From Prevotella sp. (GTDB taxonomy: Bacteria > Bacteroidota > Bacteroidia > Bacteroidales > Bacteroidaceae), in NCBI GenBank assembly GCA_024695705.1, contig JAILHP010000190.1:1-43749 (forward strand): a stretch of 43,749 nucleotides of DNA. The letters run 5' to 3'. Within the stretch, counting starts at the first letter, position 1; each line of letters starts with the position of its first letter. The translations under genes were made by a program, and so were the position numbers. The notes below the pieces were generated by a model. It worked only from the letters and a program-made list of their open reading frames with translations, had not been told where the DNA came from and did no database searches. Shown here piece by piece: positions 34-43,749 of this stretch.

Positions 34-103
34 TATCGATTATCGCTTGATAGTTCACAACGAATTGTCAATAATTATCAATAACGAATTGTCAATTCAC
101 TCA
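34..103. repeat. Degenerate period-7 tract (about 10 units: tatcgat tatcgct tgatagt ... gaattgt caataat tatcaat ...)
   Basis: Read directly; ends at the stop codon of the 106..1875 CDS. Confidence 0.6.
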
Positions 104-105
104 TC

Positions 106-1875
106 TCAGCAACGTTCTATCCATCCAAGGTTATCACCCCGACGCACCTTGGCACCTTGCTTGGCAGCGACCTCGACGAGTTTGCCACCGAGTGCAGCAG
201 GAATAGGAACGATTTCGCCCCATGGAGCCTGTATGTAGCAGAAGGTCTCACCCTCCTTGTACTGCTGACCGACAAACGGTTCCAGACAAGGTTCGCAGGC
301 TCCTTCGCCTGAGAACTCGTAATACACTTGTCCAGCGATAGGTGCCGTGAGTGCATCGGCCTTGGCATGTTTGAAGGCAGAGAGTTCCTCTACGCTGAGT
401 TTGGTACCCAACTTGGCATCCTTTTGCTTCTGTAGGTCTGCCAGGAAGTTTTTCTTTGCCATTCCGCTCTTGAAGGGACGGTACTGCTCTGGGTGCATGG
501 CCAGCTCGAAGAGTTCCTCATCGTCAGGACCGTACTCCCAGCCGTTCTCATCCATCTCCTTGCGGAACGTGTCGAGGGCATTGGGAATAAGGGTATGCGG
601 ATCAGCATCGGTAAACTCACGCTTCTGCTTCTCAGCCAGCTCAATGAGCTCAGGCGCAATAGTGCCAGGCACCTTGCCGCTCTTGCCGAGAATCATACCC
701 CAGATGGCATCGTCCATCATGACGTAGCGACCCTTGCCCTGTTCCATCGTGAGAAGGTTCATGAGGGCAATGTTCTTCGTGTATTGTGAGAACGGCGTAA
801 CGAGTGGGGGATAACCCACCTTCGGCCATACGTACTCAACTTCCTGGAAGAGCTTGACGAGCATATCGTCCATCGTATAGGTCGGCTCGCCCTTCTTCTC
901 GCGCTCCTTGTTGATCATCTTCTGGATGGGACCCAGGTCGGCCATCATCGAGCCCATCATGCCGCCAGGCAGTCCGCTGCCGAGGAGGAGTGATGACATG
1001 TGCTTGTTGGCAGGATTGATGAAGCAACCCAGCCAGTCGTCGATGAACTCCTGTGTGAGCGTGCGTGCCTGCATGTAGGCATTCATATTGATATCGGCCA
1101 CCTCGAAGCCCTCGTTCTTCAGCATCGACTGTACGGAGATGATGTCTGGATGCACCTTACCCCAGCTGAGCGGTTCAATGGCAGTATCGATGATGTCGGC
1201 ACCATTGTTGCAGACCTCAAGGATAGAAGCCATCGACAGTCCAGGACCGGAGTGTCCGTGGTACTGGATGATGATGTCAGGATGCTTCGTCTTGATGCTC
1301 TTCGTCAGCGCACCCAGCATGGCGGGCTGTCCAATGCCGGCCATGTCCTTCAGACAGATTTCCTCGGCTCCAGCAGCAATGAGCTCGTCGGCAATAGCCG
1401 AGTAATACTCTACGGTGTGTACGGGTGAGGTGGTGATGCAGAGGGTAGCCTGGGGAATCATGCCAGCCTCCTTGGCCCACTTGATAGATGGGATGATGTT
1501 ACGGGTGTCGTTCAGTCCGCAGAAGATACGCGGAATGTCAACGCCCTGTGCCTTCTTCACCTTGTACATCAAGGCGCGCACATCGTCGGGCACAGGATAC
1601 ATGCGCAGGGCGTTCAGGCCTCGGTCGAGCATGTGGGTCTGAATACCTACTTCGTTAAACGGTTTGCAGAAAGCGCGTACGGCCAGGTTAGGATTCTCAC
1701 CTGCCATCAGGTTTACCTGCTCAAAGGCACCACCGTTGGTCTCCACACGGGCAAAGCACCCCATGTCGATGATGGCCGGAGCCACACGCTCCAACTGGTC
1801 CTTACGGGGCTGGAACTTACCTGAAGACTGCCACATGTCACGATAGACTAGGCTGAACTTGATTTTCTTTTTCAT
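106..1875 (-). CDS. oadA: Oxaloacetate decarboxylase alpha / pyruvate carboxylase subunit B-like carboxyltransferase with C-terminal biotinyl-like domain
   Basis: Protein motifs: LVYRDMWQSSGKFQ..., CLKDMAGIGQPAML, YHGHSGPGLSMAS; full-length 589 aa ORF; degenerate biotinyl domain. Confidence 0.85.
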   Translation of the reverse strand: MKKKIKFSLVYRDMWQSSGKFQPRKDQLERVAPAIIDMGCFARVETNGGAFEQVNLMAGENPNLAVRAFCKPFNEVGIQTHMLDRGLNALRMYPVPDDVRALMYKVKKAQGVDIPRIFCGLNDTRNIIPSIKWAKEAGMIPQATLCITTSPVHTVEYYSAIADELIAAGAEEICLKDMAGIGQPAMLGALTKSIKTKHPDIIIQYHGHSGPGLSMASILEVCNNGADIIDTAIEPLSWGKVHPDIISVQSMLKNEGFEVADINMNAYMQARTLTQEFIDDWLGCFINPANKHMSSLLLGSGLPGGMMGSMMADLGPIQKMINKEREKKGEPTYTMDDMLVKLFQEVEYVWPKVGYPPLVTPFSQYTKNIALMNLLTMEQGKGRYVMMDDAIWGMILGKSGKVPGTIAPELIELAEKQKREFTDADPHTLIPNALDTFRKEMDENGWEYGPDDEELFELAMHPEQYRPFKSGMAKKNFLADLQKQKDAKLGTKLSVEELSAFKHAKADALTAPIAGQVYYEFSGEGACEPCLEPFVGQQYKEGETFCYIQAPWGEIVPIPAALGGKLVEVAAKQGAKVRRGDNLGWIERC

Positions 1876-1919
1876 ACTATTATCTTTAATGTATAATGAT
1901 TAATTAATCTCTCAACTTC

Positions 1920-2381
1920 TCACACCATCCCCCTCTTCAGCAGACGCTCTTCAGCCATGCGCTCGTACTTGGTGCCTGGACGGCCGTAGTTGGCGTAGGG
2001 ATAGATGCTGATGCCACCACGGGGAACGAAAAGTCCCAGCACCTCAATGTACTTGGGGTCCATCAGCTTGATAAGATCCTTCATGATAATGTTGACGCTG
2101 TCCTCGTGGAAGTCGCCATGGTTGCGGAAGGAGAAAAGGTAGAGCTTGAGGCTCTTCGACTCCACCATGCGTTCATCCGGGATATAGGCTATCTTGATTT
2201 CCGCAAAGTCGGGCTGTCCCGTAATGGGGCACAGGGTAGTAAACTCGGGGCAGTTAAACTGCACCCAGTAGTCGTTCTCCTTGTTCATGTTTTCGAAGGT
2301 CTCCAACACTTCAGGAGCATACTGGTCACAATAGTGCGTGTCTTTTCCCAGCAGTTTTAGGTTTTCTTTCTTTCTGTCCAT
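1920..2381 (-). CDS. queF: NADPH-dependent 7-cyano-7-deazaguanine reductase QueF
   Basis: [53 protein letters not shown] signature. Confidence 0.95.
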
Positions 2382-2427
2382 CTTATTCAGGGAGCATAAA
2401 AGGTACTGGCTGCAAAGATAAGAAAAA

Positions 2428-2458
2428 GTTAGGAGTTAGGAGTTAGGAGTCAGGAGTT
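2428..2458. repeat. Period-7 tract (gttagga x3, gtcagga)
   Basis: Read directly: gttaggagttaggagttaggagtcaggagtt. Confidence 0.85.
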
Positions 2459-2578
2459 TTTTCCAACCGCTTAACTTTTTTTACCTTTTATCCTTTTGGG
2501 GTTCACTCAAAATTCGTACTTTGACTGTTGTCGCGCTCGGCATACCGAAGGGTGACGCTTGTTACCAACGGGACGCAA

Positions 2579-2644
2579 GAAGGTACTTACACTCGAGAAA
2601 ACTCATAATTCTTTTGGTTTTCTTCTCGCTTTTTCGTACCTTTG
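2579..2644 (+). promoter_or_regulatory. Promoter-repeat copy 1 (actcgagaaaactcataattcttttggttttcttctcgctttttcgTACCTTTG)
   Basis: Near-identical to 15086-15149 and 19235-19299; ends in a Bacteroidetes -7 box TAnnTTTG. Confidence 0.8.
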
Positions 2645-2664
2645 TCGCCAAATCAAGATATGAC

Positions 2665-3699
2665 ATGAAGATTATCCGCTTTTTAGCTTTATCATTGATT
2701 ATTCATCTATCATTTAGCGTAGCGTCTGCGCAAGTGAAGTTCCAAGTGGAGGGTATAGCACCCGCCAGCATGGGAAAGATCTATCTCTTCGACATGGCAC
2801 GGGGAATAGCCATTGACAGCATGGCACCGAGAGACAACCAGTTCCGCTTCTCAGGCACGGCACAGCCCGACCAGTTCTTCCGCGTAGGCTCCAAGGAAGT
2901 GACTTTCGTCCTGATCAGCGACGGCATTCCCGTCAGCATCAACTTCAACAAGGGAACCCTCAAGGGCTCGCCGCTCAATGAGAAGCTACACGGTTACGAA
3001 CTGCGGGTCAACGCGCTTGAAATGGCGATGCAGTACGCCTATATGGGACAGCAGACGGAACGCCTCGACTCGCTGCGCGAAGAGTGGCGCACTGCCATGA
3101 AGACGGCAACCGTTGAGAATCAGGACAACATGATACCAGCTCTCTACATGAATGAGCTGGCTTACTTCACCCCCTACGAGGAAATGAAGCAGCTATTGGC
3201 ACCCGACAAGCCTTATTACAACCACACGTTGGTGCAACAAGCTCGCACCATGCTCAGCGATTACGAGATAAAACTCCCTGGAAAGCCTTTTGTGGAGTTG
3301 GAACTGAACGACAGCTTCGGCCGTCAGCACAAACTAAGCGAGTGGTGCGGAAAGGGCAAATACGTGCTTCTGCACTTCTGGTACACGGGGTTCCTACCCT
3401 GCCGTCGTGATCTGCGACGCATCGTCTATTGCTTCGAGGAGTTTCATCCGAAAGGGCTTGACGTAGTCGGCATCTCCCTAGATACTGACAAACAGGACTT
3501 CCTGCGTACCATCAACGAATTCCAGATGACGTGGACGCAACTCACCGACCTGAAAGGTCCCGATAGTCCTGCCGCAGAGGCATGGGGCATCCACCAGGTT
3601 CCTGCCAACATCCTCATTGGCCCTGACGGCAACATCGTTGCCTCCAACCTCTTCAACGGCGCCCTGGAGGACAAGCTCGAAGAAATCTTCGGAGAATAG
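2665..3699 (+). CDS. DUF4369 / TlpA-like thioredoxin-fold protein with atypical active site
   Basis: Signal peptide MKIIRFLALSLIIHLSFSVASAQ; thioredoxin-fold C-terminus KYVLLHFWYTGFLPCRRDL...; track start 2521 is upstream of the promoter, so ATG 2665 is preferred. Confidence 0.8.
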   Translation: MKIIRFLALSLIIHLSFSVASAQVKFQVEGIAPASMGKIYLFDMARGIAIDSMAPRDNQFRFSGTAQPDQFFRVGSKEVTFVLISDGIPVSINFNKGTLKGSPLNEKLHGYELRVNALEMAMQYAYMGQQTERLDSLREEWRTAMKTATVENQDNMIPALYMNELAYFTPYEEMKQLLAPDKPYYNHTLVQQARTMLSDYEIKLPGKPFVELELNDSFGRQHKLSEWCGKGKYVLLHFWYTGFLPCRRDLRRIVYCFEEFHPKGLDVVGISLDTDKQDFLRTINEFQMTWTQLTDLKGPDSPAAEAWGIHQVPANILIGPDGNIVASNLFNGALEDKLEEIFGE

Positions 3700-3824
3700 A
3701 CCTAGCGTAACAGCTAAGCCGCACAGCCAAAGAGTTCTTTGAAATTGTAATTGATTCATGTTGGGTTCGGCAAATAATTAATCTTTTTTAACTCAATTCT
3801 TATATGATATGACTATACTTTTTG

Positions 3825-3832
3825 TAACTTTG
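3825..3832 (+). promoter_or_regulatory. Bacteroidetes -7 box TAACTTTG
   Basis: TAnnTTTG about 50 nt upstream of ATG 3882. Confidence 0.5.
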
Positions 3833-3881
3833 CATCCCGTAAGAAAATAAAAATTATTAATAAAACCATTACCATTAAATT

Positions 3882-5312: not shown

Positions 5313-5330
5313 TAAATCATTCACTATACA

Positions 5331-5387: not shown

Positions 5388-5600
5388 ATGAATGCTCCAA
5401 ATATCTCACCTATTTTGCCTACTGCCAAAAGGTCTTTTGCCTGCTGGTGAAAGGTGTTTTGCGCACTGGCAAAAGGTTGATACCCGCCGGGTGTCGTTTT
5501 GATTCATGCCGAGTCTCTGGAAGAGAGGTGTCGGGAAACTGGGACTTTCTGCCGGGGAAAGTCGGAGAGACCACGGATGTCTCTGGAATTCAGCGCCCTC
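5388..5600. repeat. Hairpin- and repeat-rich convergent intergenic region
   Basis: Near-repeats ctgccaaaaggtcttttgc / ctggtgaaaggtgttttgc / ctggcaaaagg; hairpins gataccc-gcc-gggtgtc and gactttc...gaaagtc; repeated gtctctggaa. Confidence 0.55.
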
Positions 5601-5605
5601 TGTTC

Positions 5606-5654
5606 AAACAAACACCGCCCGCTGTTGAAACGAACAGCGAGCGGTGTTTGTTTT
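5606..5654 (-). terminator. Strong 21-bp hairpin, terminator for the 5664..6629 gene (possibly bidirectional)
   Basis: aaacaaacaccgcccgctgtt-gaaacg-aacagcgagcggtgtttgttt; one G-U-type mismatch. Confidence 0.85.
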
Positions 5655-5663
5655 AAAGCGCTA

Positions 5664-6629: not shown

Positions 6630-6657
6630 GTTGAGAGTTGAGAGTTGAACTATAAAC
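6630..6657. repeat. Period-7 tract (gttgaga gttgaga gttgaac tataaac)
   Basis: Fills the gap between the antiporter start and the next gene stop. Confidence 0.65.
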
Positions 6658-8484: not shown

Positions 8485-8519
8485 TTTACGAATTACAATT
8501 TATGATTTACGATTTTTTT
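8485..8519. repeat. Period-7 tract (tttacga attacaa tttatga tttacga ttttttt)
   Basis: Read directly in the divergent rplY/nusB intergenic region. Confidence 0.75.
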
Positions 8520-8606: not shown

Positions 8607-9554
8607 ATGATTAACCGCGAAATTATTAGAATTAAGATAGTCCAGTTAACCTACGCGTACTATCAAAACGGAAGCAAGAACATGGATTCGGCTGAAAAAG
8701 AACTTTTCTTCAGCCTTTCTAAAGCTTATGACCTCTACAACTACCTCCTGGCCTTAATCGTTGCTGTCACTAAGGAAGCACGCAAACACCTTGAAGTAGC
8801 CCAGTCAAAAGCAAAACGCGAAGGCACACCAGAGCCTTCAGGGAAGTTTGCCTACAACCGTTTCGCCCTGCAACTGGAGGAAAACAGGATGCTCAACGAC
8901 TTCCTGGAGATTCAGAAGAAGAGCTGGGACAACGACATTGAGGCCGTACAAACCCTCTACAACCAGATTGTCAGCAGCACCATCTATCAGGAATACATGG
9001 ACAATGAAGAAGATTCGTATGCTGCCGACCGGGAGCTTTGGCGGAAGATCTATCGCACGTTCATCCAGGACAACAATGAACTGGACAGCGTGCTAGAGGA
9101 ACAGAGCCTCTACTGGAACGACGACAAGGAGATTGTTGACACCTTTGTGTTGAAGACCATCAAGCGCTTTGAGGAAAACAACAAGGCCAGCCAAGAACTG
9201 CTGCCCGAATACGACAGCGAGGAAGACAAGGACTTTGCCCGCAAGCTGTTCCGCTCAACCATCCTGAATGCCAACGAGTATCAGGGATTCATGAGCGAAG
9301 CATCACACAACTGGGACTTCTCACGCCTGGCCTATATGGATGTGGTTATCATGCAGATAGCCATCGCCGAGATGATGACTTTCCCCAGCATTCCCATCAG
9401 CGTGACCATCAACGAGTTTGTTGACATTGCCAAGCTCTATTCCACTCCTAAGAGTGGAGGCTACATCAACGGCATGCTTGATGCCATTGCCCGTCACCTC
9501 ATCAACACGCACCGGCTGATGAAGCGGATGGAAGAGCCAAGAAGAAAATATTAA
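8607..9554 (+). CDS. nusB: Transcription antitermination factor NusB
   Basis: C-terminal NusB domain (DFSRLAYMDVVIMQIAIAEMMTFPSIPISVTINEFVDIAKLYSTPKSGGYINGMLD); long N-terminal extension typical of Bacteroidetes. Confidence 0.92.
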   Translation: MINREIIRIKIVQLTYAYYQNGSKNMDSAEKELFFSLSKAYDLYNYLLALIVAVTKEARKHLEVAQSKAKREGTPEPSGKFAYNRFALQLEENRMLNDFLEIQKKSWDNDIEAVQTLYNQIVSSTIYQEYMDNEEDSYAADRELWRKIYRTFIQDNNELDSVLEEQSLYWNDDKEIVDTFVLKTIKRFEENNKASQELLPEYDSEEDKDFARKLFRSTILNANEYQGFMSEASHNWDFSRLAYMDVVIMQIAIAEMMTFPSIPISVTINEFVDIAKLYSTPKSGGYINGMLDAIARHLINTHRLMKRMEEPRRKY

Positions 9555-9595
9555 AGATGAAAAATGAAAGATTAAACATTAAACTTTATAATTAT
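9554..9595. repeat. Period-7 tract (aagatga aaaatga aagatta aacatta aacttta taattat)
   Basis: Fills the nusB-yajC junction. Confidence 0.7.
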
Positions 9596-9878
9596 GAACC
9601 CGAATACACAAATGCTAATCATGATGGTGGCAATCTTTGCCATCTTCTATTTCTTTATGATCCGTCCGCAACAGAAGAAGCAGAAGGAAATTCGCAATTT
9701 CCAGAACTCGCTGACTGAGGGCACCAACGTTTTCACCAGCGGAGGCATCTATGGAACGGTCAAGAAGATTGACCTGGCCAACAACATTGTGGAGGTAGAA
9801 GTAGCCAAGGGCACCATCATCCGCGTCAACAGGAACTACGTGTTCAAGGATGATGCCAGCACGCCGACAGCGAAGTAA
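9594..9878 (+). CDS. yajC: Preprotein translocase subunit YajC
   Basis: IFYFFMIRPQQKKQKEIRNFQNSL; GGIYGTVKKID. Confidence 0.95.
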   Translation: MNPNTQMLIMMVAIFAIFYFFMIRPQQKKQKEIRNFQNSLTEGTNVFTSGGIYGTVKKIDLANNIVEVEVAKGTIIRVNRNYVFKDDASTPTAK

Positions 9879-9916
9879 GAAGTAAGAGGTTAGAAGTTAG
9901 AAGTTAGGAGTTAAGT
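9875..9916. repeat. Period-7 tract (gtaagaa gtaagag gttagaa gttagaa gttagga gttaagt)
   Basis: Six consecutive heptamers; includes the yajC TAA and part of the next GTG start. Confidence 0.9.
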
Positions 9917-10898: not shown

Positions 10899-11476
10899 TG
10901 AAGACGGGTATAACAGGGGGAATAGGCAGTGGCAAGAGCTATGTGTGCAAGTGGCTACAGGCTCGCGGGTTCGAAGTATATGACTGCGACGAAGCCGCCA
11001 AGCGTCTTATCCGCACCTCACCCGATATTCATCGTCAGCTGACTGCACTCATCGGCCCAGAAGCCTATCACTGCTCACCACTCACCACTCCTCCCTATAC
11101 CCTCAACAAGGCGGCAGTCGCCCAGTTCTTACTGCAGAGCGAGGAAAATGCCAAGTCCATTGACGCCATTGTGCACCCTGCCGTCTTCCAAGACTTCGAG
11201 GAGAGTGGCATGGAGTGGATGGAGAGTGCCATCCTCTTCGAGTCGGGCATCTACCGACTGGTAGATTGTGTCATCGTGGTGACTGCGCCCGAGGAAGTAA
11301 GGATTCAGCGGGTCATGCAGCGCGACGGCATCACGCGGGAGAAAGTACTGGAATGGATGCAGCGTCAGTGGCCTCAGGAAGAGGTGGTCGGGCATGCAGA
11401 CTTTGAAATCATTAATGACGGCATAGCAGACATCGACGAACAAATAGAGAACATTCTTTTAAAAATGTATCATTAA
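10898..11476 (+). CDS. coaE: Dephospho-CoA kinase
   Basis: KTGITGGIGSGKSYVCKWLQARGFEVYDCDEAAKRL. Confidence 0.95.
   Translation: MKTGITGGIGSGKSYVCKWLQARGFEVYDCDEAAKRLIRTSPDIHRQLTALIGPEAYHCSPLTTPPYTLNKAAVAQFLLQSEENAKSIDAIVHPAVFQDFEESGMEWMESAILFESGIYRLVDCVIVVTAPEEVRIQRVMQRDGITREKVLEWMQRQWPQEEVVGHADFEIINDGIADIDEQIENILLKMYH
11070..11097. repeat. Short period-7 tract inside coaE (tgctcac cactcac cactcct)
   Basis: Encodes HCSPLTTPPYT within CoaE. Confidence 0.55.
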
Positions 11477-11508
11477 ATCGTAAATAGTAAATTCGTAAAT
11501 AGTAAATC
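11473..11508. repeat. Period-7 tract (ttaaatc gtaaata gtaaatt cgtaaata gtaaatc)
   Basis: Read directly; coaE/DUF5606 junction. Confidence 0.75.
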
Positions 11509-12037: not shown

Positions 12038-15005
12038 ACATCGGTCGGAACATACCGCCACCGCCGAAGCCGCCTCCACGGCCACCGCCGAAGCCGCCTC
12101 CACGGCCACCGCCGAAGCCACCGCCAGGCATGCCGCCAGGACCTCCGAAGCCACCGCGTCCACGGTTACCCTGACGTCCACCAAAGATGTTCAGGCGATA
12201 GATGACGTGAAGCATGGCATACTGGTGAACGGAATTGTACTCCGTATCACTGCGCATCATTTCGTTGATGGTTCGGGTAAGGTTCGACTGACGGTTCAGC
12301 AAGTCGTAGAACTGCAGGCTGACGGTGAGTGCATTGCCCCGCAGGAAGCTCTGTGATATCTGAGCGTTCCATATCAGTTCATTGGTATTCATCGAAGCAT
12401 CACTGAAGCCACGACGGCTGTTCATGCTGATGTCTGATGCCAGACGAGTACCCCACGGCATTGTCACGTTGGCGCTGAGTCCGTAGGAGAAGGTCCACGT
12501 GTCAAGGTTGGCATTATCCTGTATGCTGTTACGAGAACGGTTATAATTGAACGAACCGTTTGGTTCAATCTCAAGCCACTGGTCGCGGTAGCTCAATCCG
12601 ATGCGCTCACTAAGGCCAAAGGTCTTGGTTGTGCTCTTCGTAACATCCGCACCACGGTTCAGGTTGGCATAACCAACAGAGTTATTATAGCTCAGGTTAG
12701 TGAACGTATTGACGTTGAAATAGCCCGTGGAGTCAATGGATGCGTTATAGACGAAGAAACCCTGTGCGCTCCAGTTGCCGTTGATATTCTCCGGACGCGA
12801 TATTTTTCCGCCCGTCTTGGGGTCATACGTCACCATATTGGCAATAGAATTGCTGGTCATGCGGAAATTGAGGTTGGCCATTACCGACTGCTGGTGACTG
12901 GTAAAGTAGTTGTTGTACATCAGTCGGAAGTTGTTGGTGAACGAGGGTTTCAGTCCCGGGTTACCTTTCGTGATGTTCATGGGGTCACTGTTGTCGGTAA
13001 TATCAAGCAGGTCGCTCATGGAGGGCTGACCGGTCTGTCCACGATAGTTGATGCGCAACTGGCTGACATCTGAAATCTTCCAGCGGAAGTCGGCCGTCGG
13101 CGTGATGTTAAAGACAGTACGGGTGGTATCAGTTGTTACACCCAGATAACGCTGTGAGAACTTCGATGACTGTGGAACCATCTGCACACCAATGTTGAAG
13201 TTATAGTCATTACGGACAATGCGCAACATCACCTCAGCCGTGTGGATGTAGTTCTTGTACTCGGAGAAACGGCTCAGCGGCACACTCAGATAGTCACTGA
13301 GCGGATTAGTGAGATGTGACAAGTAGGCGTCCCATCCGCGATAGCCAGCCGAGATATTCGTGAAGTCGTATTCATCGAGGTCGTAGGTTGAGCGGTCACT
13401 CTTCTGGTATCTGTACTGGAATTCATAGCTGAACTGCAGGTAGGTTCGGGGAAGAATGGGCTCACTGTAAGTCAGACGAATGTTGTAATTCCAGTTCTTG
13501 GTCGGTGTAAGGTTGTAGCGGTTGGTTTGTAGAATGGAGTCACCGCCGAGCATATTCTTAATCTGGTAGAGGTGCGACAGGTTCGACTGGAACTGATTTC
13601 CTTTGTTCTCACTATAATTACCTCCTAAAACGAGGGTGACGTTACGTCCCATGGAACTAAGGCGGCGGTTTAACTGCAACGTACCGCCAAGACTGGTAGA
13701 AGTAGTGTAATTAATGGAAGAGTTGATACGATTGTTGACCACTGAGGTATCGTTGACTGCAAGCATACGTGCCAGACTTTCAGCACTCAGGGGATCATCC
13801 ACATAAAGATAGGGATCTACGCTGAAAGAGGCCGAATTGCTGGTACTAGTCTGGTCGTTTCCGTTGTAGCTGAACGTCGGACGGAACATGATGTTGGTCA
13901 CCGAGTCTGCCTGCCATTCTATACGCATTTGTCCGTTCCAACGATTTCCTCGAGAGTAATTCTGACTCAGGCTGTTCGAGAAGGAACCGACAGTAGTATA
14001 GAAGTTTTGGGAAGACTGCCTTGTGGCTGCATCACCATCACTATGATTCCAGCGGATGCTGCCATCCCACTTGAAGTCCTTGTTGGGCTCATAGTTAATA
14101 TTGATACCAACCATTTTGTTGGCAGTCAGACCCTGTCGGCCCATACCGCCACGGAAGCCGCCACCACCGCCAGGGAAGCCCATATCGTTGGTGTTGTTGG
14201 CATTGAGCATGGCAATGGCGGTCATTTTGTCGTCGAACTTACCACCCATGATACGACTGGCATAGCGATGCTTCGTACCAGCAGCCAAGTCAGCGTTACC
14301 CATGAGTCCACGGTTCATGCCGGGCTTCACGCCAAAGTCGAGCACCGTTTCCTCGTTGCCATCCTCAATGCCGCTGATACGTGCAAGGTCACTCTTCTCG
14401 TCGTAAGCCTTGATTTGGTTGACAATGTCTGTAGGCAAGTTTTTCAGCGCCGTCTGTGTATCGCCGGTCATAAACTCCTTACCGTCAATCTTGATTTTCT
14501 TGACCTCCTTACCATTAATGGTAATCTTTCCCTGATCATCAATCTGAGCACCTGGCAGACGTCTGACAAGTTCCTCAATGGTAGAGCCTTCTGGCGTACG
14601 GAAAGCACTGGCATTATAAACGAAGGTGTCTGCACGCAGCGTCACCTTGGCAGCCTGAGCCGTTACCACCGTCTCTTCCAGGATGATGGCATCGGTCTTC
14701 ACGCCAACAGAACCCATAGCGACATCCTTGCCGCTCACTGAGACCCGTTTGGTATAGGGCTTGTAGCCTACACTGGTAATTTGGACGATGTAAGTGCCGT
14801 TCGACGGAGCCTCTAAGTTAAAATTACCGTCTTCATCAGACAGTACGCCTTTCACCATCGTCGAATCGGTCTTTAACAGTTTTACCGTTGCCATTGGTAC
14901 GGTTTCACCCGACTGGTTATCTACAACGGTACCTGTAACCTTGTGTTGTGCCTGGATAGTCAATGCCGTAATAACGGAAACTATCATCAATAGAATTCTT
15001 TTCAT
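12036..15005 (-). CDS. Outer membrane beta-barrel protein with carboxypeptidase-regulatory-like N-terminus (TonB-dependent receptor-like)
   Basis: Signal peptide; HKVTGTVVDNQSGETVPMATVKLL; plug-like LRADTFVYNASAFRTPEGSTIEELVRRLPG; beta-barrel; Gly-rich tail. Confidence 0.85.
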   Translation of the reverse strand: MKRILLMIVSVITALTIQAQHKVTGTVVDNQSGETVPMATVKLLKTDSTMVKGVLSDEDGNFNLEAPSNGTYIVQITSVGYKPYTKRVSVSGKDVAMGSVGVKTDAIILEETVVTAQAAKVTLRADTFVYNASAFRTPEGSTIEELVRRLPGAQIDDQGKITINGKEVKKIKIDGKEFMTGDTQTALKNLPTDIVNQIKAYDEKSDLARISGIEDGNEETVLDFGVKPGMNRGLMGNADLAAGTKHRYASRIMGGKFDDKMTAIAMLNANNTNDMGFPGGGGGFRGGMGRQGLTANKMVGININYEPNKDFKWDGSIRWNHSDGDAATRQSSQNFYTTVGSFSNSLSQNYSRGNRWNGQMRIEWQADSVTNIMFRPTFSYNGNDQTSTSNSASFSVDPYLYVDDPLSAESLARMLAVNDTSVVNNRINSSINYTTSTSLGGTLQLNRRLSSMGRNVTLVLGGNYSENKGNQFQSNLSHLYQIKNMLGGDSILQTNRYNLTPTKNWNYNIRLTYSEPILPRTYLQFSYEFQYRYQKSDRSTYDLDEYDFTNISAGYRGWDAYLSHLTNPLSDYLSVPLSRFSEYKNYIHTAEVMLRIVRNDYNFNIGVQMVPQSSKFSQRYLGVTTDTTRTVFNITPTADFRWKISDVSQLRINYRGQTGQPSMSDLLDITDNSDPMNITKGNPGLKPSFTNNFRLMYNNYFTSHQQSVMANLNFRMTSNSIANMVTYDPKTGGKISRPENINGNWSAQGFFVYNASIDSTGYFNVNTFTNLSYNNSVGYANLNRGADVTKSTTKTFGLSERIGLSYRDQWLEIEPNGSFNYNRSRNSIQDNANLDTWTFSYGLSANVTMPWGTRLASDISMNSRRGFSDASMNTNELIWNAQISQSFLRGNALTVSLQFYDLLNRQSNLTRTINEMMRSDTEYNSVHQYAMLHVIYRLNIFGGRQGNRGRGGFGGPGGMPGGGFGGGRGGGFGGGRGGGFGGGGMFRPM
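12061..12120. repeat. 24-bp perfect tandem repeat (2.5 copies) coding the Gly-rich C-terminus
   Basis: ccgccgaagccgcctccacggcca x2 plus partial; encodes GGRGGGFG. Confidence 0.9.
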
Positions 15006-15175: not shown

Positions 15176-16243
15176 ATGAACCCGCAAAAAGTGATTATCT
15201 CCGAGAATCTGACCCAGTCGCTCACGGCTGCAATGGAAGGAATAGCGTACGACCGGCTCTTCATCCTTTGCGACGAGAACACACGCCAACTGTGTCTGCC
15301 CGTGCTTCAAAAGTCAATGGTCACCGCTCACCACTCTCCAATCACCTATCACCTATCACCTATCACCATTCCAACTGGTGACACCAACAAGACACTGGAG
15401 TCGCTCTGCCACGTGTGGAGCGAGTTGCAAAAGGGCGGTGCTACGCGTCACTCGTTGATGATCAACCTGGGCGGCGGCATGGTAACTGACCTCGGGGGGT
15501 TTGCCGCATCAACCTTCAAACGCGGCATTCAATACATCAACATCCCCACAACCCTGCTCTCAATGGTCGATGCCAGCGTGGGCGGCAAGACGGGCATCAA
15601 CTTCGGAGGTCTGAAAAATGAGGTGGGCGTATTCAACAACGCTTCATCTGTCATTCTCGACACTATCTTCCTTCGTACCATGGACAAGGAGAACCTGCTG
15701 TCCGGTTTTGCCGAGATGCTGAAGCACGGACTCATTTCCGATGAAAAGACATGGGCGGAACTGATGAATTTTGAGTGGAGAGTGAATAGCGTAGAGTTTG
15801 CTACTACCATTGAGAAGAGTGTTGCCGTCAAACAGCGCATCGTACTGGCCGACCCGACAGAGAAAGGTATTCGTAAAGCCCTGAACCTTGGACATACTGC
15901 CGGCCATGCCTTTGAGTCGTTTGCCATGAAGCGGAACCCCGTACTGCACGGATACGCCGTAGCCTGGGGTATCATCGTTGAGCTTTATCTCAGTGTTGTC
16001 AAGACCGGCTTCCCCACTGACCGCATGCGTCAGACCGTCCAGTTCATCCGTGAACATTATGGGCAGCTTAACTTCACCTGCAACGATTACCCCGAACTGC
16101 TGCAGCTGATGCATCACGACAAGAAGAACGAGGGAGAAACCATTAATTTCACCCTGCTTGGCGGAATTGGTGACATCAGCATCAACCAGACAGCCACTGA
16201 GGAAGAAATCAAAGAGGCCCTTGATTTCTACCGCGAGGGATGA
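15176..16243 (+). CDS. aroB: 3-dehydroquinate synthase
   Basis: NLGGGMVTDLGGFAASTFKRGIQYINIPTTLLSMVDASVGGKTGINF; start after the promoter. Confidence 0.95.
   Translation: MNPQKVIISENLTQSLTAAMEGIAYDRLFILCDENTRQLCLPVLQKSMVTAHHSPITYHLSPITIPTGDTNKTLESLCHVWSELQKGGATRHSLMINLGGGMVTDLGGFAASTFKRGIQYINIPTTLLSMVDASVGGKTGINFGGLKNEVGVFNNASSVILDTIFLRTMDKENLLSGFAEMLKHGLISDEKTWAELMNFEWRVNSVEFATTIEKSVAVKQRIVLADPTEKGIRKALNLGHTAGHAFESFAMKRNPVLHGYAVAWGIIVELYLSVVKTGFPTDRMRQTVQFIREHYGQLNFTCNDYPELLQLMHHDKKNEGETINFTLLGGIGDISINQTATEEEIKEALDFYREG
15314..15376. repeat. Period-7 tract inside aroB (tcaccgc tcaccac tctccaa tcaccta x3 tcaccat)
   Basis: Encodes AHHSPITYHLSPITIPTG. Confidence 0.9.
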
Positions 16244-17240: not shown

Positions 17241-18277
17241 AGCTGGTCACCACGTATTTCAAGCGGCATGGGGATATTATCTCTAAAGAGCTGGCCAGTG
17301 CCGAGTCCTTGTGGCATGGTAATCCGGTCACCATAGACTGCTGAACAAAACTGGGCAATAGCATTTAGGCCGATATTGCTTTCCAGCGCACTGGTTATCC
17401 ATGAGCCAATACCCATGTCGCGAGCTATTTGAATCCACTCACGTGTTCCTGCCATACCACCATGCAGTGATGGTTTGAGAATGATGTATCGTGGGCGGAC
17501 AATGTTCAGCATTTGGCGTTTTTGTTCTGGGTCGTTAACACCGATGAGTTCCTCGTCAAGAGCGATGGGGAGCGGCGACTCTCGGCAAAGTTCAGCCATG
17601 AAGGACCACTGTCCCTGACGGATAGGCTGTTCAATACTGTGGATGTTGTACTGCGAGAGCAGTTCAAGCTTATAGAGCGCCTCGTCAAAGGAGAAGGCAC
17701 CGTTGGCATCGAGCCGCAGTTCCACTTCATGATGGGAGAAACGCTGACGGATGCGTTTGATTAAGTCCAGTTCACGGTCAAAGTCAATAGCTCCGATCTT
17801 CAGTTTAACACAACGGAAGCCCTGTTCCAGTTTCTCCTCCAAGCGACGGAGCATCTCGTCGTAGTTGCCCATCCAGACAAGGCCGTTAATGGGAATGCCC
17901 GTCTCGCCACGACTGAACGGCGTATCAAAAAGCAGTGGAAGATGGAGGGTGGAGGGAGGACGGTGGAGGGTCAGAAGGGCTGTTTCGAAGCCAAAGAGCA
18001 TAGAGGGATAGTCGCGCAGCGACTCGAAGAAATCGGAAACAGCAGCTTCTCCCTGTTCAATGGCGGCAGCAAATTCTTTACTCTTTACCCTTAACTTTTC
18101 ACTATAGTCAGGCAGGTCGTCGCACGACAACTGTGGCAGCGGTGCACACTCGCCGATGCCTGTAACAGGCCCCTCGGACATAATAACCAGCCATATCCTT
18201 CTCTCGGTATAGACACCGCGGCTTGTTCTTGCGGGCTGTTTGAAATGGAGCACAAACTCCTTGGTTATTATCTTCAT
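17219..18277 (-). CDS. menC: o-succinylbenzoate synthase
   Basis: Enolase superfamily: [55 protein letters not shown]. Confidence 0.88.
17935..17976. repeat. Period-7 tract inside menC (gtggaag atggagg gtggagg gaggacg gtggagg gtcagaa)
   Basis: Encodes [14 protein letters not shown]. Confidence 0.85.
18072..18106. repeat. Period-7 tract inside menC (aattctt tactctt taccctt aactttt cactata)
   Basis: Encodes [12 protein letters not shown]. Confidence 0.6.
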
Positions 18278-22522: not shown

Positions 22523-23574
22523 TTACGCATGGTTTCCATCTTTGCCTCCGTCTCCTGCCATTCCTGTTCCTCCACGCTGTCAGGCAACAAACCACCTCCT
22601 GCATAAAGGCGATAACCGTCAGGAAGTAACTGCATGCAGCGGAGCGACACATACAGATGAGTGGAAGGTGGAAGGTGGAGGGTGGAAGATGGAAGGAGGA
22701 TTGGCCCCATGAAACCGCTGTAATAACGGCGTGGTGAATGTTCGTTCTTCTGAATAAAGTCAAAAGTCTGAGGCTTGGGAAGCCCGCAGACGGCAGGCGT
22801 TGGGTGCAAGGTCATCAGTACGTCACCAAGATGCTGTTCATCGGGCAGTGTGAAAGTGAAGTCGCTGCGCAGATGTACCAGATGTCCAGCTCGTGCTGTA
22901 TATGGACCACATTCGTTGAAATCACCCGTAAACTGTTCTAAACATTCGGTCAGGTAAGTAGCCACATAACGTTGTTCTTGAATATTCTTGGTGCTCCATA
23001 AAACATGCTCACCCTCACTATTTAAGTCATCCCCTTCTAATCTCATGGTTCCCGCCAAAGCGATGGTTTGCCATAGTCCGCCTGTATTCGACAGTAAGAT
23101 TTCGGGGGTTGCTGTCAACCATGTACCGCTCTTGGGCGTAGAGACAAGGCATATAAACATACGCGGATAACGTTGGCAGGCATCACGAAAAAGGTCAAGG
23201 CCGCTACGTACAGGGTCTGAAGTTACATTAACACTGCGTGCCAACACGATTTTACGGAATTCGCCCGACAACAAATGTGCATGGTAATTGGCAAAGTCTA
23301 TGTGGTAATCGTCACGGGAGATATCCGTTTCCTTGAGAACCGAAGCTTCTGAAAGGACAGCACTTTCTAAAGAATCTATGAGACGAGTCTCAACCCTGTC
23401 TCCTCGTATCAGCATAATCGGCTCTTCTTCTGAAACAGCAAAAGGTGCCAGCACAAAACCTCGTTTGCCATTCAATTCCGCCAAGGAGAACAACTCCAAG
23501 GGTACCCCAGCGGTCTGTTCAACCAAAGTATAATGGTTTTGGCGAGGCAAGCGGTAGATAGCAAAGGCTTTCAT
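22489..23574 (-). CDS. menF: Isochorismate synthase
   Basis: Chorismate-binding domain: FRKIVLARSVNV, LAGTMRLEGDD, GDVLMTLHPTPAVCGLPK, RRYYSGFMG. Confidence 0.9.
   Translation of the reverse strand: MKAFAIYRLPRQNHYTLVEQTAGVPLELFSLAELNGKRGFVLAPFAVSEEEPIMLIRGDRVETRLIDSLESAVLSEASVLKETDISRDDYHIDFANYHAHLLSGEFRKIVLARSVNVTSDPVRSGLDLFRDACQRYPRMFICLVSTPKSGTWLTATPEILLSNTGGLWQTIALAGTMRLEGDDLNSEGEHVLWSTKNIQEQRYVATYLTECLEQFTGDFNECGPYTARAGHLVHLRSDFTFTLPDEQHLGDVLMTLHPTPAVCGLPKPQTFDFIQKNEHSPRRYYSGFMGPILLPSSTLHLPPSTHLYVSLRCMQLLPDGYRLYAGGGLLPDSVEEQEWQETEAKMETMRNLLNSKTANRK
22661..22702. repeat. Period-7 tract inside menF (gtggaag gtggaag gtggagg gtggaag atggaag gaggatt)
   Basis: Encodes LLPSSTLHLPPSTHL. Confidence 0.9.
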
Positions 23575-23576: not shown

Positions 23577-23625
23577 GTTGACAATTGAGATTTGAGGTTC
23601 GAGATTTAGGATCTGAGGTTTAATC
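23577..23625. repeat. Period-7 tract (gttgaca attgaga tttgagg ttcgaga tttagga tctgagg tttaatc)
   Basis: Seven consecutive heptamers filling the menF/thioesterase junction. Confidence 0.9.
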
Positions 23626-25080: not shown

Positions 25081-25112
25081 TTAAACATTAAAATGAAACA
25101 TTAAACATCAAT
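25081..25112. repeat. Period-7-like tract (ttaaaca ttaaaat gaaaca ttaaaca tcaatc)
   Basis: Between the two ROK genes. Confidence 0.5.
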
Positions 25113-26181: not shown

Positions 26182-26216
26182 ATTATCCATTATGCACGAT
26201 GAATTATGAATTATTT
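26182..26216. repeat. Period-7 tract (attatcc attatgc acgatga attatga attattt)
   Basis: Abuts the lysS -7 box. Confidence 0.65.
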
Positions 26217-32059: not shown

Positions 32060-32716
32060 ATGATGAAAAAAGGTTTACTTTGGCTCTTGGTTGTCGGCTG
32101 TTGGCTGTCTGTCGTCTGCTGTCAGTCAACAGACAACGGACAAGAAACGGTGGACGACGGCCAGCTGCTTATAACGCATATTCAGCAATGTTCACGCCTT
32201 TACACGGCTGAGTATCAGATTCACAAGATTATCACTCACGACGACGTGCTCCGGCTGCAAGGCCAGATGACCGGCCAGGACTACGACATTGCGCTACCCG
32301 TGCTTGGCGACCGCAAGATTGCCATTCCCATGGATGCTACAGTGAAGGCTTATATTGACTTCAGTGGTTTCTCTGAGCAGAACGTAGAGCGTGACGGCGA
32401 GCGTATCACCATCATCCTGCCCGACCCGAAGGTAAAACTGACCAGTACGAAGATTGACCATGACAACGTCAAGAAGTATGTGGCGCTGCTGCGTTCCGAT
32501 TTCACCGACGATGAGATATCCTCCTATGAGCAACAGGGACGTGCCGCTATTCTCAAGGCCATCCCCGAAATGGACATCGTCGAGTCTGCCCGCAAGAATG
32601 CAGCTCGTATCCTCATTCCTATGATCAAGCAAATGGGCTTCAGCGAGCGTAACATCACCATTACGTTCCGCAAGGACTTGAATACGCAAAACATTATTGA
32701 AAGGAGTACGGAATGA
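32060..32716 (+). CDS. DUF4230 domain-containing protein
   Basis: AEYQIHKIITHDD...IAIPMDATVKAYIDFSGFSEQNVERDGERITIILPDPKV; start after the promoter. Confidence 0.8.
   Translation: MMKKGLLWLLVVGCWLSVVCCQSTDNGQETVDDGQLLITHIQQCSRLYTAEYQIHKIITHDDVLRLQGQMTGQDYDIALPVLGDRKIAIPMDATVKAYIDFSGFSEQNVERDGERITIILPDPKVKLTSTKIDHDNVKKYVALLRSDFTDDEISSYEQQGRAAILKAIPEMDIVESARKNAARILIPMIKQMGFSERNITITFRKDLNTQNIIERSTE
32080..32163. repeat. Period-7 tract in signal peptide / N-terminus of the DUF4230 gene (ttggctc ttggttg tcggctg ttggctg ... acagaca acggaca ... gtggacg acggcca)
   Basis: 12 consecutive heptamers; second half resembles the reverse complement of the first. Confidence 0.8.
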
Positions 32717-39687: not shown

Positions 39688-39911
39688 TTTCCTTTCTTTT
39701 GACTGCAAAGATACGTATTATTTTCCTACTCTCATCACTTTTCCGAAAAAAGTTTTACCTTACGCTTTTCCTTTGGCTTCGCCGAATGTAAGATGCATCT
39801 CTGAAATGAAAAAAAACATCTTTATTTTGCATTTCGCTCAATTTTCATTACCTTTGTCTTAGGAAAACGGAGGTGTCGATTGTATTATGAGTAAAAAGAC
39901 TGAAAGAACAG

Positions 39912-40394: not shown

Positions 40395-41025
40395 CAAACT
40401 GGAACAGCTCCTCCGACAAATGTATGCCGAGGAGTCCCTCCACGAAGAAAAAGACATCGATACCTCGTCCATCATCGACGAGGAGTGGGCGAAGTTTGAA
40501 GCCAAGCACTTTGGAAATGCTACCTCCACCTCCACTGATGGAAGCGCAGATTCTATGGCGGCAGCACGCTCGGCTTCGCCGCTTTGCTCTGCAAAGAAGT
40601 CTTCACTCTACACTCTAAACTCTAAACTCTTGAAGATTGCAGCCATGTTCATCGGCGTGCTGATGCTCTCGGGTATCGCCTACGCTGCTTTCCACTATTT
40701 CAGTGGCGACCCACAACCCTCAGCAAATATCTCTCAACCCTCATCGCTCAGCCCTCAGCCCTCAACACTCAACCCTCAACCTTCAACCCTCAACCCACAA
40801 CCCTCAACTCCCATCGTCTTTGAGGATGCGGAACTGGCTACGATTCTCCAGGAGGTTGCAACTTTCTATAAGTGTGAGACCGTTTATAAGAATGAGAAGG
40901 TGAAGCACGTGCGACTCTACTTCACATGGGACAAGACAAAGTCGATAGACGAGATTGTCGAGACGTTTAACAAGTTTGAGCGTTTCCACATCACCCGAGA
41001 GAACCAGAAACTGATTGTAGAATAA
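40381..41025 (+). CDS. Anti-sigma-like TM protein with C-terminal DUF4974-like domain, apparently lacking a FecR domain
   Basis: Overlaps sigma gene; TM LLKIAAMFIGVLMLSGIAYAAFHYF; C-terminus FEDAELATILQEVATFYKCETVYKNEKVKHVRLYFTWDKTKSIDEIVETFNKF. Confidence 0.75.
   Translation: MESNDKLEQLLRQMYAEESLHEEKDIDTSSIIDEEWAKFEAKHFGNATSTSTDGSADSMAAARSASPLCSAKKSSLYTLNSKLLKIAAMFIGVLMLSGIAYAAFHYFSGDPQPSANISQPSSLSPQPSTLNPQPSTLNPQPSTPIVFEDAELATILQEVATFYKCETVYKNEKVKHVRLYFTWDKTKSIDEIVETFNKFERFHITRENQKLIVE
40604..40631. repeat. Period-7 tract in the anti-sigma gene (cactcta cactcta aactcta aactctt)
   Basis: Read directly; encodes LYTLNSKL. Confidence 0.75.
40712..40809. repeat. Longest period-7 tract: 14 heptamers (consensus CTCAACC) in the anti-sigma gene
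   Basis: ctcaacc ctcatcg ctcagcc ctcagcc ctcaaca ctcaacc ctcaacc ttcaacc ctcaacc cacaacc ctcaact; encodes PSTLNPQ repeats. Confidence 0.95.
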
Positions 41026-41041
41026 GAAAGCAGTAGTCATC

Positions 41042-43603
41042 ATGAGAAAGATTATATTCACAGCCCTGCTCTGCAGCCTGTGCCTGTGCCTCAATGCCCA
41101 GAAACTGACCCGCAACTATCATAACCAGTCACTCTCGAAGGTGCTGGAAGACCTCAATGCCGTCACTGGCGACCAGACCATCTACTTCATCTACGATGAG
41201 CTGGAGGACTTCACCGTGACCTGCCACTTCACCAACCTGACGCTGAAAGAAGCCGTCAACGAGGTCATCGGCTTCTACCCCATGAAAGTGAGCTACGACC
41301 AGAACAACATCTTCGTGGAGTGTACGCAAAAGGAAACCACGAAAGTCATTGGCCGGCTGGTCGATAATGCCAGACACCCCATAGAGTTCGCCAACGTCTC
41401 GTTGCTCAGCGACAGAGATTCCACATTCCTGAACGGCAGCGTGAGCAATGAGAACGGCGACTTTGTCATTCCCTGCAATGCCCGCCGCGTGACGGTTAGG
41501 GCAACCTGCATCGGCTACCAGACCTTGCTGCGCAGCGTCAGCGTGGGCGAGATAGGCACCATCGTTATGCAGCCTGAGACCTACAGCATTGACGGTGTGG
41601 TGGTAAAGGGCGTAATTCCGCAGTACAAGATGACCACGGGCGGCATGACCATCGAGGTTCAGCACAGCATCCTCCACGATGTGGGTACTGCTGATGACTT
41701 GCTCTCCTTGTTGCCAGGTGTTCAGGGGCGTGACGGCAAGTTTACCATCATGGCCAAGGGCGAGCCCGAAATCTACATCAACAATAAGAAGGTGCGCGAT
41801 GCGCATGAGCTGAAGCAACTGAAGTCGGTCGATGTAAAGAACGTGGAGATTATCACTGCCCCTGGTGCCCAGTACAATGCCGAGGTGAATGCCGTCATCC
41901 GCATCAAGACGCTGAAGCCACAGGGCGACGGACTAAGCCTGATGGCTACCGGCAATCTACAGCGTAACAACCACTGGAGCAGCTACGACGACCTGACCGT
42001 GAAGTACCGCACGGGTGGACTGGAGGCTTTTGCCAACGTGGCGTTCGACTGGGGGCACTTCAGCAACGACGAAGACCTGGATCAGGAGCTGCACATCAGC
42101 CAGGACCAGTATAACATCCATGCCTATGCACCCGTAAGGACGCGCTGGACACGACTTCAGTACCAGACAGGGTTGAGCTATGACTTCAACACAGACCATT
42201 CTGTCGGCCTTAGTTTTTCGTTAGAAAGGCAACCATCTCAGCACTTCAAGAATGACATGCCGCAGGAGTATCAGAAGAACGGAGCGTACTATGGCAGCAT
42301 CCTCCTAAAGACCGTGGGTGAGGAGCCTGATAAGCCCGTGTGGGAACTGAACTCGTACTATATAGGAAAGGTGGGAAAGCTGGGCATCGACCTGAATGCT
42401 ACCCTGCTACGACGCGAATCGGGAGACCAGTTCAACCAGGAGGAGTTGAGTCCGGAGTTGGGCAACCGCACCCTTACCATCATCAACGAGGAGAAACGAA
42501 CGTTGGCAGCCGGCAAACTGGTACTGACTTACCCTGTATGGCAAGGTGTACTGAGCTTCGGCTCGGAGGCCACCTCCACGGAGAGCCATGGTCACAACAT
42601 CGACCAGGAGAATATCATACCCGAGGCCGACAACGAGATGAAGGAAAAGAACATTGCCGGTTTTGCAGAATACGAACTCACGCTCAACGCTCACCACTCA
42701 ACGCTCAACTTTAACGCCGGCCTACGTTACGAGCATGTAGCCACGGACTACACGTCGTTCGGCATCTGGCAGCCAGAGCCCAGCCGTACCTATAACGACT
42801 GGTTCCCCAACCTCTCAGTGGCCTGGCGGAAAGACAAGTGGGGCGCACAGCTGAGCTACAGCAAGCGCATCTCACGTCCACCCTACCGCATGCTGTCATC
42901 CATGGTAGTTTATGACAGCCGAATGATTTATGAGGGCGGCAACCCGTTGCTGCGACCTTCGGTACGTCAGAGCATCGACTTCAACCTCACCTATTCCTGG
43001 CTCAACTTCACGACGGGCTTTACACGTGAGAACGACCTGATTAGCCACATTGCCGAAGTCTATGACGAGGCGAACGAGATTGCCATCTTCCGACCCGTCA
43101 ACATCGACCATCAGGACCGCGTCTATGCTACCCTCGTGGTATCACCGAAGCTGGGTTTCTGGCAGCCACAAGCCACGCTGCATTACTATCAGCAGATGTT
43201 TGACGCCGAAGCCTACGGTGTACCGATGAAGCTGAACAAGCCTGAATTCAGCTTCAATCTGAGAAACTGGTTCCTCATCAATCCCACGACGAAGGCACTT
43301 GTTTACATCGATTATACCGGTAGCAACCACTGGGCATTTATGTATCGTGGCAGCAATTTTACCATGGGTGCCCGTGTGCAGAAAACCTTTTGGCAAGGAA
43401 GGTTGAACGCTACACTGTATGCCAACGACATCTTCCGCACCATCAAGACGAAGACGACCACCTACTACGCCATAGGATCAACCGCTCAGAACGACTATAA
43501 CTATACGCAGAGCGTAGGCCTCACCCTGAGCTACAACTTCAACGTCACCTCATCGAAATACAAGGGAACAGGTGCCGGCAACGAGGAGCGAAACCGACTC
43601 TGA
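41042..43603 (+). CDS. TonB-dependent receptor-like outer membrane protein with N-terminal STN domain
   Basis: STN-like KLTRNYHNQSLSKVLEDLNAVTGDQTIYFIYDELED; carboxypeptidase-reg-like VIGRLVDNARHPIEFANVSLL; beta-barrel. Confidence 0.88.
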   Translation: MRKIIFTALLCSLCLCLNAQKLTRNYHNQSLSKVLEDLNAVTGDQTIYFIYDELEDFTVTCHFTNLTLKEAVNEVIGFYPMKVSYDQNNIFVECTQKETTKVIGRLVDNARHPIEFANVSLLSDRDSTFLNGSVSNENGDFVIPCNARRVTVRATCIGYQTLLRSVSVGEIGTIVMQPETYSIDGVVVKGVIPQYKMTTGGMTIEVQHSILHDVGTADDLLSLLPGVQGRDGKFTIMAKGEPEIYINNKKVRDAHELKQLKSVDVKNVEIITAPGAQYNAEVNAVIRIKTLKPQGDGLSLMATGNLQRNNHWSSYDDLTVKYRTGGLEAFANVAFDWGHFSNDEDLDQELHISQDQYNIHAYAPVRTRWTRLQYQTGLSYDFNTDHSVGLSFSLERQPSQHFKNDMPQEYQKNGAYYGSILLKTVGEEPDKPVWELNSYYIGKVGKLGIDLNATLLRRESGDQFNQEELSPELGNRTLTIINEEKRTLAAGKLVLTYPVWQGVLSFGSEATSTESHGHNIDQENIIPEADNEMKEKNIAGFAEYELTLNAHHSTLNFNAGLRYEHVATDYTSFGIWQPEPSRTYNDWFPNLSVAWRKDKWGAQLSYSKRISRPPYRMLSSMVVYDSRMIYEGGNPLLRPSVRQSIDFNLTYSWLNFTTGFTRENDLISHIAEVYDEANEIAIFRPVNIDHQDRVYATLVVSPKLGFWQPQATLHYYQQMFDAEAYGVPMKLNKPEFSFNLRNWFLINPTTKALVYIDYTGSNHWAFMYRGSNFTMGARVQKTFWQGRLNATLYANDIFRTIKTKTTTYYAIGSTAQNDYNYTQSVGLTLSYNFNVTSSKYKGTGAGNEERNRL
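42674..42715. repeat. Period-7 tract in the TonB-receptor gene (gaactca cgctcaa cgctcac cactcaa cgctcaa ctttaac)
   Basis: Encodes ELTLNAHHSTLNFN. Confidence 0.75.
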
Positions 43604-43611
43604 ACATTAAC

Positions 43612-43645
43612 AAAAGGCTTCCCACGATGGTGAGAAGCCTTTTTA
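43612..43645 (+). terminator. Rho-independent terminator
   Basis: aaaaggcttcccacgatggtgagaagcctttttac, 9 nt after the CDS. Confidence 0.85.
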
Positions 43646-43667
43646 CTTTTTTACCTGTTTACCTTTT

Positions 43668-43749
43668 TTACCTTTCAATCACCGTGAGCACCGTGTCTCC
43701 AGGTTTGAAGAGCAGGCCCGTACACTTCGTGGCGGCAGCCTTGTAGGTC
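43668..43749 (-). CDS. C-terminal end of a truncated CDS, unknown product
   Basis: Open minus-strand frame ...TYKAAATKCTGLLFKPGDTVLTVIER* running off the window; short. Confidence 0.45.
   Translation of the reverse strand, partial: TYKAAATKCTGLLFKPGDTVLTVIER

Follow-up and report, generated by a model that had tools for sequence, protein, structure and literature searches.

The window analysed here, a stretch of 43,749 nucleotides from a Prevotella assembly, carries genes with Pfam matches to queF, nusB, ybbR, coaE, the menaquinone genes, Porin_O_P and outer-membrane receptors, and its closest relatives are rumen Prevotella, with 91% protein identity. Judged from these Pfam matches and best relatives, the window is rumen Prevotella DNA. 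A cyanobacterial origin was rejected because of these relatives, and the cyanobacterial comparison drawn for its repeats by an earlier reading of the letters of this DNA (hereafter the sequence-only reading) does not suit this genome. Between and within the genes are tandem tracts of 7-nt units (heptads), which are listed in Table 1; all of the tracts quoted in the sequence-only reading were located. The gene following the ECF sigma gene, which holds two of them, is a putative anti-sigma factor, judged by its position.

Table 1. Tandem tracts in the window, with their positions, context and the basis of each entry.
Unit	Position	Strand	Context	Basis
AGTTAGG x4.4	2427..2457	.	intergenic, just upstream of Bacteroidota-type promoter (TAnnTTTG)	TRF, segment scan, context
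GTTGAGA x2.7	6630..6648	.	abuts start codon of Na/Ca-exchanger gene	segment scan, Pfam
TTACGAT x4, degenerate	8486..8515	.	between divergent ribosomal L25 and nusB genes	TRF, segment scan
AAAGATG/AAACATT x6	9546..9588	.	fills nusB-yajC spacer; other units or none in other species	segment scan, comparison
GAAGTTA x6	9872..9913	.	fills yajC-ybbR spacer	TRF, segment scan
TCACCAC x3.3	11068..11090	.	within coaE	segment scan
TAAATCG, mixed 7/8-nt	11474..11508	.	after coaE stop codon	TRF, segment scan
TCACCTA	15307..15367	.	in frame in aroB, encodes HHSPITYHLSPIT	segment scan
GTGGAGG	17936..17971	.	in frame in menC	TRF, segment scan
TCTTTAC, weak	18075..18103	.	in menC	segment scan
TCTTTAA	19180..19212	.	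upstream of a gene, near promoter	TRF, segment scan, context
GTGGAAG	22661..22695	.	in frame in menF (isochorismate synthase)	TRF, segment scan
TTGAGAT, weak	23578..23606	.	between two minus-strand genes	segment scan
TTAAACA x4.1	25081..25108	.	between two ROK-family genes	TRF, Pfam
ATTATGA	26182..26214	.	upstream of lysyl-type tRNA synthetase gene	segment scan
TTGGCTG, weak	32080..32108	.	in DUF4230 gene	segment scan
AGATGAA/ACATTAA	36179..36214	.	begins at stop codon	segment scan
TCTAAAC	40600..40630	.	in frame, gene after ECF sigma gene	TRF, segment scan
CTCAACC x10.9, longest tract	40733..40808	.	in frame, gene after ECF sigma gene, encodes LSPQPSTLNPQPSTLNPQPST	TRF, segment scan
ACGCTCA	42680..42709	.	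in TonB-dependent-receptor-like gene	TRF, segment scan
CCTTTTTA, 8-nt, minority period	43638..43675	.	after last gene	TRF

Other repetitive features are also present in the window. Direct repeats of 22 nt (7+7+8) with short palindromes, at 5413-5477 and 5594-5648, are possibly a mixed-period relative of the heptads, and a 24-nt repeat at 12054-12126, in the C-terminal end of an outer-membrane-protein gene, is apparently an ordinary coding repeat. Additionally, the ORF calls at 2521, 15071, 19146 and 35398 open with a similar peptide, SRKLKILLVFFSLxRTFA or part of it; these starts are repeated promoter-like DNA with a TAnnTTTG box read in frame, and they are spurious, not protein.

The 7-nt period

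With a threshold segment score of at least 9.5 on lag-k matches, 19 lag-7 tracts were detected in the window, as against about 0.25 expected from order-2 simulations. The remaining lags yielded none (lags 5 and 11), one (lags 6 and 10) or three (lags 8 and 9), and 12 tracts were found at lag 14. The density at this threshold is 0.43 tracts per kb, not 0.6 as stated in the sequence-only reading. In 566 kb of the same genome, scanned at a threshold score of at least 12, there were 153 tracts at lag 7, 27 at lag 8, 15 at lag 9, two at lag 6 and none at lags 5 and 10, whereas an order-4 Markov simulation gave 0-1 tracts. The period spectrum runs 7 >> 8 > 9 and is empty at 4, 5 and 10, and lag 7 is likewise the top period in the relatives. 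In the comparison with lags 5, 6, 8 and 9 that had been set beforehand, lag 7 lay far above each of them in both the window and the 566 kb; the lag spectrum confirms that the 7-nt step is special, and with it the heptad observation.

The tracts cover about 1% of the sequence and are approximately 12-fold denser between genes than within them (within the 566 kb, the 44.5 kb of intergenic sequence hold 78 tracts, and about 521 kb of ORF hold 75). An excess at the same step is seen in short matches (5-6 nt), of which tract-rich DNA contains 238 at lag 7 versus 40 expected, about sixfold. In the own genome this enrichment declines through 8, 9 and 10 and has a sharp edge below 7; in 40 congeners free of tracts, lag 7 was not special in the short-match test.

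Units, placement and turnover of the tracts

The statement that the unit differs from tract to tract is correct insofar as one genome holds many units, but units recur far above chance: in the own genome, AACTCCT is found in 15 tracts (0.25 expected), AAAGCTC in 14 and AAATGAT in 13, each with fewer than 0.4 expected. Other species prefer other units. The loose pattern R-T-K-R-R-N-N that had been proposed for the units is weak but real, as it fits 67% of those in the own genome versus 45±4% of letter-shuffled units and 24% of ordinary intergenic heptamers, and in other species 72% versus 39%. The information in the unit pattern is 4.60 versus 4.03±0.08 bits, and the common pattern is approximately T-K-R-R-N-R, again weak but above composition. 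As the sequence-only reading had argued, slippage at single loci does not predict such a shared pattern. Along the tracts of the own genome, the similarity between units falls with distance, from 84% for neighbours to 74% (p=0.0005), but no such gradient exists in other species, where similarity is flat at 84% (p=0.89); interior units were used, as ragged tract ends bias the test.

Many tracts begin at the stop codon of the upstream gene, and tracts are enriched at gene ends and next to promoters (ACCTTTGCA). One explanation of the arrays is that they are translational insulators, in which a tandem stop-bearing heptamer closes all three frames after a gene; the starts at stop codons are consistent with it, as is the presence of a stop in 31/36 sense-strand units between co-directional genes of the own genome, versus 65% of letter-shuffled units. 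However, other species show no excess (72/95, or 76%, versus 72% by composition), for which reason three-frame stop arrays were rejected, and tracts in coding sequence necessarily avoid stops. We regard this explanation as very improbable.

The tracts turn over between species. For 1,261 tract-species pairs with alignable flanks, in which tracts figure repeatedly and which are not independent, the partner had no tract at the orthologous place in 1,126 cases, a tract of a different unit in 121 and a tract of identical unit in 14. Absence or replacement was also commoner than retention in the pairs with 84-92% flank identity, and in the nusB-yajC spacer the unit varies by species, most of which have no tract. 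The comparisons support turnover with replacement of the unit. They also bear upon the idea that the arrays are regulatory, i.e., clusters of sites that selection maintains for a DNA- or RNA-binding protein whose footprint spans 7 nt. Three 7-nt units correspond to two helical turns. The weak common pattern, which exceeds composition in both of two separate samples, the enrichment beside promoters and at gene ends, and the flat unit similarity in other species are all in agreement with this idea, but at most orthologous places, conserved operons included, the tract is missing or has another unit, 40 of 60 congeners have no tracts near nusB, and many tracts lie within enzymes. A period-7 binding constraint, which the sequence-only reading had offered as a possibility, is not supported as the main cause, since the tracts are specific to lineages, are lost or have another unit at orthologous sites and lie in frame inside enzymes, and we consider the regulatory explanation decidedly unlikely.

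The tracts located inside ORFs are read through in frame. At the menF tract, the protein has 7 extra residues relative to EntC, and in aroB similarity to solved structures sets in directly at the end of the tract. In comparisons with close orthologues, coding length differences of 15, 18, 21, 24, 27, 36, 42, 81 and 132 nt were observed; with one or two sites excepted, these are divisible by 3, and most are not divisible by 7. At one coding site, the sequence was overwritten at equal length with no change in size.

Within the genus, the trait is patchy. In a survey of 20 kb around nusB in each of 60 congeneric species (densities outside the own genome thus rest on about 20 kb each), nine species had 5-7 tracts, two had three, two had two, seven had one and 40 had none, so that 11/60 species are tract-rich. 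In a four-protein tree, the tract-rich species belong mostly to one clade (with G141 and G032 as exceptions), with three separate ones (G006, G151 and G122). The assembly that contains the window is fragmented and 74% complete, as would suit an artefact of metagenome assembly, but five tracts were also found in 21.5 kb of a named isolate, P. ruminicola KHT3, and therefore the tracts are not such an artefact. The preservation of frame by the coding insertions and the agreement among assemblies of many studies likewise make this explanation extremely improbable.

TAAATGA/TTTATCA arrays flank start codons at five loci (L109 4175-4368, L084 18565-18677, L117 7067-7167, L127 5126-5243 and L137 4704-4835). 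In several unrelated genes, they code for the hydrophobic core of an N-terminus resembling a signal peptide (GLSFIIYHLSFS), and many have GC hairpins, such as GCGGCCTTCGGCC, in front of them.

Palindromes with heptad arms

Inverted pairing of tracts, like the in-frame coding insertions described above, was absent from the sequence-only reading. Among pairs of tracts 30-200 nt apart, 42 were inverted (roughly 33 separate loci) versus 6 direct. In the own genome, an inverted partner was located no more than 220 nt away for 26% of the tracts, versus 3% in a null with exchanged flanks, and none of the 12 window tracts tested had one. Inverted pairs make up short palindromes with heptad arms, in which the core varies and the inner ends are conserved (AATTATGATTAC...GTAATCATAATT in one family); in the copies read, the arms are inverted and their unit is specific to the locus. 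Sequence conservation along the palindromes is limited to the inner ends, while arms and cores vary. The autocorrelation of the arms is 0.49, 0.43 and 0.41 at lags 7, 14 and 21 versus about 0.28 at lags not linked to 7, and the inner end (AATTATG-ATTAC) shares the 7-nt phase of the arms. The five examples that were folded do so strongly (z -9 to -16).

The exact AATTATGATTAC...GTAATCATAATT pattern is present in 12/200 congeners, with several copies in some of them; the reversed control gave 0, and the pattern was not found in any of 294 other Bacteroidales genomes. Matches of the pattern in viral contigs were rejected, as they lack heptad arms and look like chance, and neither the window nor the palindromes gave an Rfam match. 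Conservation of the inner ends was seen in several palindrome families, and outer ends are not conserved. The ATTATGATTAC family is multicopy in several congeners, with up to 8 exact matches per genome. A second family, from another species, has two copies within 1 kb in L003, one of them an exact 132-nt in-gene insertion (L003 vs L004); in this comparison, the one insertion examined, target-site duplication was not observed. The dxs product has about 35 additional residues exactly at an element, where the match to 2o1s breaks, and other in-frame elements are found in genes of the OlsH and CCA-transferase types.

Other arrangements of this kind were noted in passing. Upstream of fabF, two species have different heptad-armed palindromes at seemingly one junction (L118 13543-13690 and L278 1440-1600). 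At L124 2398-2612, a palindromic element is tandemly duplicated, with two nearly identical cores, and near 8115 in L060/L061, GGAGTTAA-like words recur, with a perfect hairpin after each that differs from word to word (CGGGCTTTGCCCG, GCACTACGTGC, TGAGCTTTTGCTCA).

Based upon these palindromes, all of the tracts could be viewed as arms, half-elements or remnants of mobile RPE- or MITE-like palindromes, spread by transposition, with the period derived from the element ends. The excess of inverted over direct pairs, the several families with conserved inner ends, and the paired copies and exact gene insertion of L003 are as expected from mobile DNA, and the ATTATGATTAC family also occurs in species poor in solitary tracts (G004, G077 and G102). 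However, 74% of the own-genome tracts and every window tract tested have no detectable inverted partner, the cores are mostly dissimilar, no duplication of the target site was seen at the one insertion examined, no autonomous element came to light, and an association with REP-type transposases (see below) failed validation. That all tracts derive from such palindromes appears rather unlikely.

Origin of the arrays and relation to known systems

The analyses above show a 7-nt period, its patchy presence or absence among species, rapid turnover of tracts, placement limited by tolerance, insertions that keep the frame, and inverted pairing of tracts in palindromes whose inner ends are conserved. 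To explain them, we lean, by a modest degree, towards an error of copying that favours steps of 7 nt and whose products are filtered by selection, together with an RPE-like palindrome family built from the same heptads. A local error in DNA copying, by slippage or template switching, would realign preferentially by 7 nt, with a minor tail at 8-9 nt, and would keep making, homogenising, overwriting and deleting tandem heptamer arrays in this Prevotella lineage. Selection would then set which arrays persist, namely those at gene junctions, in promoter spacers, in signal peptides and in protein loops, and within genes only those in frame. The heptads double as the inverted arms of the genus-restricted short palindromes, whose inner ends are in 7-nt phase, and an error acting at hairpins would extend both arms. 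We infer that a copying error, of the type proposed in the literature for heptamer SSRs (see below), is the generator; the palindromes and solitary tracts probably share it, and the palindromes probably move or copy themselves. Some observations do not favour this model: the coding insertions of 15, 18, 24 and 27 nt and the one overwrite of equal length count against it, and neither the shared unit pattern nor the strong recurrence of a few units is predicted by pure slippage. The missing similarity gradient in other species is a point against stepwise slippage; with flat similarity, slippage by single units is not general, and multi-unit duplication or conversion is needed there. A different possibility is that some Prevotella lineages have an enzyme or element specialised in synthesising DNA 7 nt at a time, which builds inverted, locus-specific heptad arms around variable hairpin cores and spreads the palindromes in frame through protein genes, the solitary tracts being its footprints; we hold this to be doubtful.

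The on/off pattern was explained by none of the genes that were tested as candidate generators. Loss of MutS was rejected, as MutS-family matches are present in 27/28 genomes and the long MutS is intact in most of the tract-rich ones. A reverse transcriptase was rejected, as none is found in the tract-rich, 99% complete G151 and G079, and a Y-family polymerase was rejected, as it occurs in every congener tested except the incomplete own assembly. An IS200/RAYT (REP-type) transposase was suggestive in a first set (12/13 versus 3/13), but this result was not reproduced in 35 further genomes; long RAYT-like proteins, a subset chosen post hoc, are present in 6/11 versus 3/49 genomes. The RAYT genes in L294 and L295 have no flanking heptads.

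The sequence-only reading knew of no formal description matching these repeats, and it missed that over-representation of heptamers in bacteria has been published: heptanucleotide SSRs are over-represented in bacteria (Mrazek, 2007, as cited in PMC4692102), with GGGAATC in Xanthomonas and GGGGATT in Nostoc as examples (Rehm, 2015; PMC4692102) and tandem heptanucleotides of Calothrix among those cited there, where a suggested cause, also given by citation, links slippage of the polymerase to its contact length. The Prevotella tracts share with these SSRs (PMC4692102) an excess of the exact 7-nt period, intergenic enrichment and variation of length and sequence between close species, and some inverted pairs are known from Xanthomonas. 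In contrast to them, the Prevotella tracts have many units per genome instead of one G-rich unit, strong on/off variation within one genus, in-frame copies in genes and a role as arms of palindromes. Additionally, their units are not G-quadruplex motifs, unlike the heptamers of Rehm (2015; PMC4692102); the common units AACTCCT, AAAGCTC, AAATGAT, AAAGATT, AATTCTC and ACCACTC have no GGG on either strand. Heptamer arrays have also been noted in some Bacteroidetes: TAACTGA direct repeats are known from Beggiatoaceae, Cyanobacteria and a few Bacteroidetes (MacGregor, 2015; PMC4679880), and they resemble the present tracts in being located near start codons, in their patchy distribution and in that the long Bacteroidetes arrays mix in other heptamers. 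However, that work stresses one fixed heptamer (PMC4679880), unlike the situation in Prevotella. The TAACTGA class is absent from the unit list of the own genome.

The REP/RAYT systems and MITEs are dispersed palindromic DNA in intergenic spacers. The Prevotella palindromes are likewise scattered between genes, and REP-type transposases occur in several tract-rich species, but there is no consistent association with a transposase, and the inner, not the outer, ends are conserved. With the Rickettsia palindromic elements (RPE; Ogata, 2000), as summarised in PMC10969869 and PMC2996958, they share a short length, scattering within one genus, several families and in-frame presence in conserved enzymes with a recognisable peptide (in Prevotella, ENGELRIxNYDNQ...NHNSxFSILNSQ). 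Long foldable inverted repeats and in-frame insertion in conserved genes were both found, whereas conservation along the element was not. Unlike RPE as described in those summaries, the Prevotella palindromes have tandem-heptad arms with a unit that depends upon the locus and a hypervariable core, and most copies read are intergenic. Our literature search found no paper on heptad arrays or heptad-armed palindromes in Prevotella, which does not prove absence, and the palindrome-linked architecture looks new.

Why the repeats of bacteria prefer exactly 7 nt was raised as an open point in 2007, and close Prevotella species, which range from none to 5-7 tracts per 20 kb, offer a natural setting in which to test what determines the step. 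Palindromes in frame within genes have been described from Rickettsia and Wolbachia (PMC10969869, PMC2996958); those described here would widen such gene-entering selfish DNA to abundant rumen bacteria, where they add residues to core enzymes that annotation takes as ordinary sequence.
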